Assembly (NCBI RefSeq): GCF_963666525.1 | Contig: NZ_OY762905.1 | Coordinates: 2,831,501 to 2,895,500 of the forward strand | DNA: 64,000 nucleotides | Reading direction: 5' to 3' | Source: an uncultured Cohaesibacter sp. | GTDB lineage: Bacteria; Pseudomonadota; Alphaproteobacteria; Rhizobiales; Cohaesibacteraceae | Shown: piece after piece, positions 45,300 through 48,382 of the stretch | Layout of the letters: each line of letters starts with the position of its first letter | How positions within the stretch are numbered: position 1 is the stretch's first letter | The notes under the pieces: generated by a model | What the model was told of the DNA's origin: nothing | What the model saw: the letters and a program-made list of their open reading frames with translations, nothing else | The model's database searches: none | Translations under genes and position numbers: made by a program

Positions 45300-45593
45300 G
45301 TTCTGTTCTCCGGGGAGGGGGGAGGCGGTCTCTTTGCTCATGGACAGATGTGTTGGTGGTGCGCCGAGCGGTTCGCAGCAGCGGGAAGGGATGCGCAAAA
45401 TGGCTGTGACGCGCTGGCGAACAGGAAACGTGCAGGTGACGAATCGACCTTGATGGCTTGATTCAAGGTCTCCCTCTGTGGAAAACCCGGATATAAGCAA
45501 CAGAATTGGAGTGGATAAGACTAATTTACACAGTTACATCGATTGAAAGACTGTCATGCCTCTTTTCAACCGGAAAAACCAATGATATAAATT

Positions 45594-45708
45594 CCGTCAC
45601 GGAGCAAGCACTACCCGTCAGGTGTCGCAAGCAGTAAAGCTTAGACAGGTAACCCAACTCGCCCCGTGACGGCAGCGTCCATCATGTGTCGCAAGCAGTT
45701 CGATGGAC
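45594..45708 (+). ncRNA. Candidate structured small RNA with repeated TGTCGCAAGCAGT
   Basis: CCGTCACGG (45594-45602) and CCGTGACGG (45664-45672) are a perfect nine-base inverted repeat. Inside it, ACCCGTC/GACAGGT (one mismatch) encloses the 13-mer TGTCGCAAGCAGT (45623-45635). Next, GTCCATC (45677-45683) and GATGGAC (45702-45708) enclose a second exact copy (45687-45699). A -10-like TATAAA (45586-45591) lies eight bases before the first arm. No reading frame of note is present. The strand is not certain: on the minus strand the loops would read ACTGCTTGCGACA. The rest of 45300-46181 has no gene that I can support. Confidence 0.4.
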
Positions 45709-45762
45709 AGACTGTAACCGATCCAATCCGTTGACGCGGTATTAGAGCGGTATCTCTTTGAT

Positions 45763-45798
45763 GTGATGTGCCTGAAATTCGCAGTTTCAGCACATCAC
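45763..45798. repeat. Imperfect inverted repeat (14-base stem) after the candidate RNA
   Basis: GTGATGTGCCTGAAA (45763-45777) pairs with TTTCAGCACATCAC (45785-45798) with one bulged C and a seven-base loop. No T tract follows. It may be the 3' end of the candidate RNA or a split operator for the TetR gene downstream. Confidence 0.5.
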
Positions 45799-46181
45799 AC
45801 ATAGAATTCCTTTTCCACACAATTTCAAATACTTAACGTCTGCATCATCAGAGGCAGCGTATATTTTCATTTGTGCCTTCTGGTGAGCATCGGGTCTTTT
45901 TTGATCCGGTGCGAAACACCGAACGTGGCCCTATTCAACCTCGATTGATTTGACCAAAAAGACTTTACCAACTCACCGTCTTTGTAAGATCAAAATAGAC
46001 AAAATTACATCAACTGTCAATCTTTCAGGTGAAAGAAATTTACAGAAAACTGCTTTTCGTTTAGTCTTATTCAAGAAAAAAATTCGTCACCACGTTCCAG
46101 TGAAATTGGGCGAAGAGTGATAGCACCTTTTTATTGCAAACAGAGGAAGCACATTCCCGTCGCAGGATGTGTCGCAAGCGA

Positions 46182-46757
46182 ATGGTAGATACAAAAGAGA
46201 AAGTTATACGGGCTGCTGAAGAACTGATTTCTCGCTACGGATATAGCCGTACCTCCATGACAGACGTTGCAAGGCAGGCTGGTTTGTCCAGGCAGACTGT
46301 CTATGCCGTGTTTGCCAACAAGGAGGATCTTTATGCGGAAACGGCCTACTATGTTTTCAAGCAGCATCTGGCGAAAGTTCGTGAGGGCATCACTCATTGT
46401 TCGTCCTTGCGGGATCAGTTGCAGATCTACTTCGAGCATATGGTCATTGGCCCGTTTCTGTTCCTGCAGAAGCATCCGGAGGCGAAAACCCTCTGGGCTG
46501 ATGAGTCGATGAACAATCATCCAGCCATCACCAAGCTCAAGCAGGAGCATCGCCAGTTTCTGGCCGAGCTGCTCGTGCCCTACACGAAATATATCGGTAC
46601 ATCCGGTCAATGCCCGGCGCACATGGCGGATTTCATCATTATGACCTGCCGGGAACTGAAATGTGGCAAGGCGTCCTCGATTGAGGAATTGCAGAAGCTT
46701 CTGGATACGCTGACCGCGTCTGTTCTGGCATTGGCTTCGCCAAGCGAAGCCGCCTGA
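46182..46757 (+). CDS. TetR-family transcriptional regulator
   Basis: A 191-residue regulator. The N-terminal helix-turn-helix is MTDVARQAGLSRQTVYAVFA followed by NKEDLYAE. The ligand domain is not recognisable by motif. I chose ATG 46182 (MVDTKEKV); ATG 46167 in frame is possible, though AGG directly abuts it. No good Shine-Dalgarno is present at either start; instead TGTCGCAAGC (46170-46179) lies immediately before ATG 46182, the same motif as in the candidate RNA and the porin leader. The gene is convergent with the porin gene. The target is unknown. Confidence 0.85.
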   Translation: MVDTKEKVIRAAEELISRYGYSRTSMTDVARQAGLSRQTVYAVFANKEDLYAETAYYVFKQHLAKVREGITHCSSLRDQLQIYFEHMVIGPFLFLQKHPEAKTLWADESMNNHPAITKLKQEHRQFLAELLVPYTKYIGTSGQCPAHMADFIIMTCRELKCGKASSIEELQKLLDTLTASVLALASPSEAA

Positions 46758-46960: not shown

Positions 46961-48064
46961 TTAGAAGTCGCGCTGCAGGCGCAGTTTGCCTTCCCATACT
47001 TCGGTGTCTGCCGTGGTGACATAGTCGAAGTCGCGGTCGGTGTACTGGATACCAGCGATGATCTTCAGGTTTTTAACCGGCTTGTAGCCAACTTCACCAG
47101 ATACGGTGTAGAAGTCATAGTCAAGGTTGGTTGCGCCCTTGTCGTTGTAGTCGCCATAACCACCGGAAATGACGGTCCACAGGTTGTCAGCAAAAGCATA
47201 TTTCAAGCTTGCGGACACACCATACAGTTCGTTCAACTGGTCGCCAGTTGCATCAGACATGTAGGTGCTGGATGCAATGCCGTTCCAAGCCATTGCACCT
47301 TCGGTGTAGAAGCCGTTCAGAGCGATGTTGGAGCCTTCAGACAGCATGTCGAGGTTGAAGATACCGCCAGCAGCTACGGAATATGCAATGTCGTTGTCAT
47401 ATGCAGCGTTCAGGTAACGAGCCTGGGAAACAACACCACCTACAGAGACAGAACCCCAAGCCTGGTCAACTTTCAAACGAGCAACCAGGGTAGGCAGGGT
47501 CTGGCCGGCCCAAGAGCCGTTCAGGTGTTTGTTGTTTGCGATGCCGAGGGTAGCGGTAACGCCATTGCCCAGAGCCATGTTGTAGCCGATCTGGCCAGCT
47601 TCGGTATCGCCGAGGTCATAGTCGCCGCCGTACATGTCGCCAACGTAGTCAACAATGCCTGCAGTGGTCAGGTAACCAGCATAGAAACCGCCGAGGGTCA
47701 TGTATGCGCGCTTCAGGTCGATGTTGCCATCTTCGCCCTTGCCTACGTCGCCTTCAAAGCGAACATGGGAAGACAGGGTTCCGAATTCGGTTTCTTCTTT
47801 GGCTTCGAAGTTAACCTGGCCACGAGCCCAGAGGTCGAATTTCTGGGTAGCGCGGTCGCCTTCGTTGAAGGTTGCTTCAGTACGAGCATAACCGCTGATC
47901 TTCAGGCAGGTGTCGGTACCTGGGATGAAGAAATAGCCAGCGCCGTATGCGTCGCAAACTTTTACGTAATCTACAGGTTCTGCTACCGGCAGATCTGCTG
48001 CCTGAGCGGCACCGCCAGCTACGAGAGCAGCTGCAGAACCGAGGATGAGGCTCTTGATGTTCAT
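46961..48064 (-). CDS. Outer-membrane porin, Porin_2 family
   Basis: A 367-residue trimeric beta-barrel porin of the alphaproteobacterial Porin_2 type for diffusion of small hydrophilic solutes. The signal peptide MNIKSLILGSAAALVAGGAA ends QAAD. The hallmark DYVKVCDAYGAGYFFIPGTD then TCLKISGYART follows, with the conserved Cys pair. The C-terminus ends in Phe (KLRLQRDF), as outer-membrane proteins do. I chose ATG 48064 because AGGGTCAG precedes it; an upstream in-frame start would add a non-secretory tail. The leader carries TGTCGCAAGC about 26 bases before the start. Confidence 0.95.
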   Translation of the reverse strand: MNIKSLILGSAAALVAGGAAQAADLPVAEPVDYVKVCDAYGAGYFFIPGTDTCLKISGYARTEATFNEGDRATQKFDLWARGQVNFEAKEETEFGTLSSHVRFEGDVGKGEDGNIDLKRAYMTLGGFYAGYLTTAGIVDYVGDMYGGDYDLGDTEAGQIGYNMALGNGVTATLGIANNKHLNGSWAGQTLPTLVARLKVDQAWGSVSVGGVVSQARYLNAAYDNDIAYSVAAGGIFNLDMLSEGSNIALNGFYTEGAMAWNGIASSTYMSDATGDQLNELYGVSASLKYAFADNLWTVISGGYGDYNDKGATNLDYDFYTVSGEVGYKPVKNLKIIAGIQYTDRDFDYVTTADTEVWEGKLRLQRDF

Positions 48065-48090
48065 AATTCTGACCCTAGTATTTGTATAAG

Positions 48091-48100
48091 CTTGCGACAA
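48091..48100 (-). promoter_or_regulatory. TGTCGCAAGC motif in the porin leader
   Basis: Read in the sense of the porin message, TGTCGCAAGC lies 26-36 bases before the start codon. The same ten bases occur twice in the candidate RNA at 45.6 kb and once immediately before the TetR start, always in the sense of the downstream message for the two mRNAs. A shared regulatory contact is inferred. Confidence 0.4.
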
Positions 48101-48382
48101 AGAGACAATACTCGTTAAATTGTAAATCGCAAACATACTTTCAGAGTCTAATTGTCAATTCAAATTCCTTGTTGCAAAAAAAACACAAAGGGTCTTTCAA
48201 GCCCCGCATTTCTGCCATTTTTCGTGTGATGAGAAAGCGTTGAATGAGGCGGGGCGCGTGTGGGCATCTTTGGATGCCGCCAAAAAGCAGCCCGGACGTG
48301 GTCATTGTGGGGAAGAAAAGCAGGCTTTGAAGAGAGTCGCCAAGCTCCAGTTACCTGGGGCGCCAGTTGCCTGGCTTAAGCG

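Follow-up and report, generated by a model that had tools for sequence, protein, structure and literature searches.

Genomic context of the element

The window analysed in this study is a stretch of 64,000 nucleotides from an uncultured Cohaesibacter sp. (contig NZ_OY762905.1, positions 2,831,501 to 2,895,500 of the forward strand). The element of interest lies in a non-coding region between a transporter gene and a gene for a TetR-family regulator (tetR), followed on the opposite strand by a gene for a Porin_2 outer-membrane porin (porin 2). A first-pass annotation had described this region as a candidate structured RNA, and its TATAAA box, perfect closing stem, 13-mer repeats and second and third hairpins were all recovered by direct reading at the coordinates where it had placed them (Table 1).

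Table 1. Features of the element and of the neighbouring genes, in window coordinates.
Feature	Position	Strand	Basis or remark
TATAAA	45586-45591	plus	direct reading
Closing stem, perfect, 9 bp	45594-45602/45664-45672		direct reading
Repeated 13-mer TGTCGCAAGCAGT (plus reading)	45623-45635 and 45687-45699		direct reading
Second hairpin as first noted	45677-45708		direct reading
Conserved block with extended -10 TGATATAAAT (45583-45592), directed into the element	45519..45593	plus	
Proposed sRNA, ~403 nt	45583..45985	minus	both ends inferred
Hairpin 1, 26 stem pairs on minus, carries loop 1	45594..45672	minus	final structure of the proposed RNA
Loop 1 seed ACUGCUUGCGACA	45623..45635	minus	invariant in 9/9 aligned, present in G015 too
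Hairpin 2, 11 pairs, carries loop 2	45673..45714	minus	100% of cells paired, 9 sequences
Loop 2 seed ACUGCUUGCGACA	45687..45699	minus	invariant in 9/9 aligned, present in G015 too
Hairpin 3	45763..45798	minus	closer to the 5' end of the proposed sRNA
-10 TATTTT of sRNA promoter, spacer 17	45992..45997	minus	TATTTT or TATCTT in 9/9
Inverted repeat GACA-N13-TGTC over the promoter spacer	45998..46018	minus	in 10/12 promoters compared
-35 TTGACA of sRNA promoter	46015..46020	minus	kept in 9/9
Predicted target just 5' of the tetR start codon, -15 to -2	46167..46180	plus	14 bp with loop 2
Gene of the TetR-family regulator (tetR), divergent from the sRNA	46182..46757	plus	Pfam TetR_N
Porin_2 outer-membrane porin (porin 2)	46961..48064	minus	Pfam PF02530, E 1.1e-45
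Predicted target UGUCGCAAGC, porin 2 leader, -35 to -26 from AUG	48090..48099	minus	10 bp with both loops

A repeat search also recovered the 13-mer and the closing stem, extending the latter to 15 nt at 87% complementarity. The 10-mer TGTCGCAAGC occurs four times in the window (0.25 expected) and at 18 places in the whole genome (six for the reversed control), while the exact 13-mer is confined in this genome to three places, namely the two loops and, complemented, the leader of a second porin gene (porin 1). The folding energy of the element was matched by none of 200 dinucleotide shuffles on either strand, with z scores of -5.3 for the plus strand and -7.1 for the minus strand.

The region had been described as non-coding and as matching no riboswitch, 6S, SRP or RNase P pattern, and both descriptions hold. 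ATG-started frames vary among the genomes, with none of at least 25 aa in one of them (G011), and no reading frame is common to all aligned genomes; a protein-coding reading was therefore ruled out. No family of Rfam 15 reached its gathering score at the element, and nothing credible appeared there at E values of up to 10, the best matches having E values of 2.4 or worse. Elsewhere in the window just one Rfam match reached its gathering score, a tRNA gene at 1866-1939 on the plus strand.

Distribution and covariation

BLAST located the element in eight of 17 congeners and in none of 43 genomes beyond the genus. A covariance model added a divergent copy in C. celericrescens (G015; E 1.9e-11), which brings the carriers to ten of the 18 genus genomes, including that of the window. 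When covariance model R1 was run under the stricter filters of Infernal against 83 genomes outside the genus, a single match was returned, in the same order, and its E value of 0.075 was taken as chance. A search of genome contigs with the loop-1 pattern gave five records, three from Cohaesibacter and two from unrelated MAGs; the latter fold without the two-hairpin plan, and about two chance matches are expected by our own estimate.

Both 13-mers are invariant in the nine aligned sequences. In the minus-strand consensus, 16 of the 64 pairs change on both sides, twice the shuffled mean of 8.0, and most of this two-sided covariation falls in hairpin 3 (nine of its 19 pairs) and the middle hairpins, with three such changes in hairpins 1 and 2. 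Further pair types number 32, below the shuffled value of 40.5. Paired cells account for 96.7% of the total, a share that drops to 34-46% when the partners are slid. In addition, the stem sequence of hairpin 1 has been replaced in C. celericrescens with the plan unchanged and the loops kept. The conservation of the element and its covarying stems in relatives thus support the suggestion of a structured RNA, with the covariation-supported secondary structure to be expected of a small RNA.

Strand assignment

The first-pass annotation had read the element on the plus strand, and its observations by themselves hold no strand test. Judged from the pattern of base pairs, the functional strand appears to be the minus strand. 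Hairpins 1 and 2 together have 37 stem pairs. In nine sequences these pairs, with stems taken from the minus-strand alifold (a choice that leans towards minus), every opposed position inside them counted and five further apical pairs drawn by alifold in loop 1 omitted, comprise 276 Watson-Crick cells, 55 cells that are G.U on the minus strand (at 12 positions) and two other cells. None is A.C on the minus strand, the form that a G.U pair of the plus strand would take there, and the internal A.C mismatches of the plus-strand stems become G.U pairs on the minus strand. Hairpin 3, with 12 G.U and two A.C cells on the minus strand, does not decide between the strands. The alifold consensus energy is -85.5 for the minus strand versus -67.7 for the plus strand, and the plus-strand alifold also has its own G.U pairs, four in number, invariant and confined to the loops. 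Furthermore, the TetR-divergent copies in C. celericrescens have the same orientation to tetR as the minus reading. The plus strand as the functional one is thus not borne out, since both the stem wobbles and the conserved promoter described below favour the minus strand.

Promoter and ends of the proposed RNA

On the minus strand, TTGACA-N17-TAT(T/C)TT is present in all nine close genomes, ending 273-292 bases before loop 2, and the C7 copy of C. celericrescens has a variant, TTGACC...TATATA, that ends 136 bases before loop 2. A promoter scan called the site as one of two promoter-like sites; because shuffles yield 1.2 such sites, the weight of the promoter rests on its conservation. Both the promoter and the last hairpin of the proposed RNA are kept in the nine aligned genomes and, on the evidence of sequence, the RNA has a promoter of its own and no conserved reading frame. 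The GACA-N13-TGTC repeat over the promoter spacer, half of which is supplied by TTGACA itself, is a possible TetR operator.

A scan of the proposed sRNA found no canonical terminator. The bases that follow hairpin 1 are AAUUUAUAU in the window and CUCCCUUUU in C. celericrescens.

Predicted pairing with porin and tetR mRNAs

The genome of the window has two Porin_2 genes above the family cut-off and a third match below it, and both genes carry GTCGCAAGC in their leaders. Within the genus, GTCGCAAGC is found in the porin 1 leader of all 18 genomes and in ten of ten porin 2 leaders; two of the 30 full porins lack the site, one in C. celericrescens, beside an sRNA copy (L037, beside L116), and one in G017 (L060).

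With G.U pairs allowed, the longest predicted contiguous pairing is that of porin 1 with loop 1, at 16 bp in nine of nine close genomes and 18 bp in C. celericrescens. The porin 2 leader pairs over 10 bp with both loops in all ten sRNA-bearing genomes. Pairing of tetR with loop 2 extends over 14-15 bp in eight of the nine close genomes. In the ninth, G011, it covers 11 bp and spans -5 to +5; outside these nine, the one tetR gene of C. celericrescens that was tried (L195) pairs over 8 bp. Among 2000 control chunks per loop, from which motif-holding chunks were left out, 10 bp was reached by 93 for loop 2 and 101 for loop 1 (about 5%), at least 12 bp by 12 and 10, and at least 14 bp by two and two, respectively. 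Matches of 10 bp are thus not rare by chance, and the weight of the one with porin 2 comes from the conservation of the site.

Duplex energies were compared with those of 100 shuffles. For porin 1, no shuffle was as good in any of 20 comparisons, and for porin 2 the energy was matched by 0-4 shuffles. For tetR it was matched by 0-7 in the eight genomes with the site, by 25 and 55 in G011, and by 8-87 for the two tetR genes of C. celericrescens. Complementarity to outer-membrane protein leaders, as looked for in a small RNA of this kind, was thus found, being strong for porin 1 and modest for porin 2. The porin sites, at -81 (porin 1) and -35 (porin 2), lie off the ribosome-binding site, and the tetR site overlaps the initiation region. 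In the predicted folds part of loop 1 (GCUUG) pairs with UAAGC, and most of loop 2 is paired in G014 and C. celericrescens.

The tetR leader (46131-46181, plus strand) was also seen by eye to contain, in several genomes, another partial motif copy, placed within a small hairpin of the CACATTC/GAATGTG type.

The tetR module

A search for homologues of the TetR protein gave 15 matches in 13 of the 18 genomes. Each of the 11 strong homologues (E 5e-37 or better, in ten genomes) has a divergent, loop-bearing locus beside it; the other four matches (E 3e-15 to 2.4e-9, 26-35% identity) have no loop within a flank of 1500 bases. C. celericrescens has three sRNA loci, two of which are near a porin. 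The first has two loops and adjoins a porin, without a tetR match; the second and third have a single loop and each adjoin tetR, and one of them is also near a porin. In this species L118 and L116, two extra relatives with a single hairpin, each diverge from a TetR gene.

The porin leader element in genomes without the RNA

The extended pattern TTGTC-N3-6-TGTCGCAAG has 30 matches across the 18 genus genomes, 26 of which are porin leaders by position. The other four lie in open frames of at least 100 codons, in one genome each, and the reversed control gives five matches. In the genome of the window, the matches are the two porin leaders (G000:C1:3877784-3877802 and window 48091-48108, minus strand). 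The pattern also occurs in the eight congeners in which no sRNA was detected, and the porin 1 leader motif is equally conserved there, so that it needs a further role or another partner. By eye, a short inverted repeat (for example GCAGTGA/TCACTGC) stands directly 3' of the element in porin 1 leaders.

Outside the genus, 14 porin leaders were examined out of 41 matches. One leader from the same family (G019, L182) has TGTCGCAAG within 120 bases of the porin start, another from that genome (L174) has it at about -277, and the other 12 have none.

Among all 36 places of TGCTTGCGACA in the eight genomes without the sRNA, none is a convincing partner RNA. These places comprise eight porin 1 leaders, one piece resembling a porin leader (G017, L136), one site near leuA (G017, L129) and otherwise open frames of at least 100 codons, measured between stop codons and taken from both strands. 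The L136 piece (G017:C23:2649) resembles a porin 1 leader with TGTCGCAAGCAGATGGCCCCA and stands upstream of a different open frame of 334 residues. At L129:650-710 (G017:C22), GCTTGCGACA is found downstream of the apparent end of leuA (named from sequence) and just 5' of a terminator hairpin that is GC-rich and has a T-run; this layout, seen in that one genome, is like that of a 3'UTR-derived sRNA. As a general partner this site was rejected: 11 of the 18 genomes match the stretch, and outside G017 and G010 the match covers no more than query bases 1-56 and does not extend to the site. G010 matches the stretch, yet the site is not among its 11-mer places.

Proposed mechanism

The sequences show a strand bias, stems that covary, a conserved promoter, complementarity to the predicted targets and linkage of the module. 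The best explanation, which we think likely, is an antisense RNA of about 400 nt from the minus strand that pairs with porin and tetR mRNAs and represses the porins. Such an RNA would act in trans and be transcribed divergently from tetR, with its hairpins presenting ACUGCUUGCGACA in two loops. The loops would pair with UGUCGCAAGC(AGU) in both Porin_2 mRNA leaders and with the tetR mRNA around its start, the flanks of loop 1 fitting porin 1 and those of loop 2 fitting tetR. As a result the porin mRNAs, and perhaps that of tetR, would be translated less or be less stable. At the positions of the porin sites the effect would need to be indirect, via leader structure, decay or ribosome standby. 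The functions first suggested for the tandem loops, titration or a duplicated aptamer, are not supported as leading ones: because the minus-strand loops are antisense to the porin leaders and the tetR start, direct base pairing with mRNA is the simpler account.

Repression of the sRNA probably comes from the TetR protein, acting at the promoter spacer. An inducer would then shut down the porins, and silencing of tetR would make the response self-reinforcing; here we infer the transcription, the direction of the effect, the binding of TetR and the inducer alike. A more elaborate version, which we regard as doubtful, is a porin-shutdown cassette in which a TetR sensor is joined to a divergent sRNA with flank-specialised twin seeds, the first serving a distant porin and the second TetR's own start region, made bistable by mutual repression and with a convergent plus-strand RNA as antagonist. 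On this reading the cassette would occupy three loci in one species.

Alternative readings

The alternative that survives best, possible though we incline against it, is that both strands are transcribed, the minus RNA being the porin regulator and a plus RNA from TGATATAAAT its cis-encoded antagonist, which would sponge or destroy the sRNA because its loops copy the target sequence. The conserved plus-strand block has the layout AATTTACAC..ATTACA...TGAAA...CTTTTC...TGATATAAAT, and its extended -10, TGATATAA, is found together with the upstream part in all nine close genomes, a few bases 5' of the closing stem. Excerpts of a report on CJnc180/CJnc190 in Campylobacter (PMC8687705) provide a precedent. 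However, the extended -10 is absent from the C. celericrescens copy and is not called by a consensus promoter scan, and the block may serve otherwise, for example at the 3' end of the minus RNA. The TATAAA that had been described as -10-like is conserved in nine of nine close genomes, but it is missing from the C. celericrescens copy and may start an antisense transcript instead of the functional RNA. The block is a possible promoter, perhaps regulated, of such an antisense RNA, and both promoters, minus and plus, may be in use.

It is improbable, in our judgement, that the plus RNA alone is functional, mimicking the porin leader element UGUCGCAAGC and thereby titrating a leader-binding protein or another sRNA. 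In favour of this reading, the loops and the porin leaders agree in sense; the leader element is kept even without the sRNA, so that another factor may bind there; and the plus strand has its -10 and the four invariant G.U pairs inside loops. However, all of the stem wobbles of hairpins 1 and 2 favour the minus strand, the minus promoter is conserved, the C. celericrescens copies keep their orientation to tetR, and the 36 places of TGCTTGCGACA offered no convincing partner RNA. That the repeats are DNA sites for a regulator, with no RNA involved, would suit their density in the gap that separates a transporter gene from the gene of a regulator, but is very improbable given the strand-asymmetric G.U pattern, the covarying stems around invariant loops and the replacement of stem sequence in C. 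celericrescens while the loops were kept.

If the proposed antisense RNA is real, it would add a family of small RNAs with named targets in a marine alphaproteobacterial genus, beyond the usual enteric models. A TetR-type sensor coupled to a porin-silencing RNA would link a small molecule directly to the permeability of the outer membrane, and mutual repression would form a simple switch. With its predicted pairing to porin leaders and the tetR start, the RNA looks like a control over cell entry.

Comparison with known systems

Searches of open-licence papers found no literature on small RNAs or porins in Cohaesibacter, and none on this RNA among the matches listed. Antisense control of porins is of a known kind: MicF, MicC and RybB of enterobacteria are Omp-repressing sRNAs, and the pairing with porin leaders proposed here is similar to theirs. 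In contrast to these, the present RNA is longer, carries identical seeds in two loops, has no evident U-rich tail and matches no Rfam family. In Alphaproteobacteria, NfeR1, CcsR or cuckoo RNAs present one motif in several loops as an anti-Shine-Dalgarno sequence; the multi-loop motif is alike, but here it is gene-specific and, in the porins, directed away from the ribosome-binding site. Protein titrators of the CsrB/RsmZ type have GGA motifs in many loops, and an assignment to this type was rejected as GGA is absent from both strands of the repeated 13-mer.

According to excerpts of the report on Campylobacter jejuni, CJnc190 is a trans-acting sRNA antagonized by an overlapping convergent RNA, CJnc180 (PMC8687705). 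A plus transcript in the present element is suggested by the conserved -10 only, and the targets and sequence differ. A close likeness by description is with ChvR of Caulobacter crescentus, an alphaproteobacterial sRNA whose loops are directed to an outer-membrane protein mRNA. Excerpts of its report describe stem-loops that pair with chvT mRNA at -70 to -59 and -20 to -10, the first of these sites lying at a distance similar to that of the porin sites here, with two different loops, a single TonB-dependent receptor as target and control by ChvI-ChvG (PMC6237742); the ChvI motif is given in part of another paper as TTGC-N3-GCAA (PMC9731502). In contrast to ChvR, the element described here has an identical 13-mer in its two loops, and its predicted targets are two porins and the divergent tetR. 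What would be new, as far as the sequences indicate, is the pair of identical seeds with target-fitted flanks, and the link to a divergent TetR gene that is itself a predicted target.
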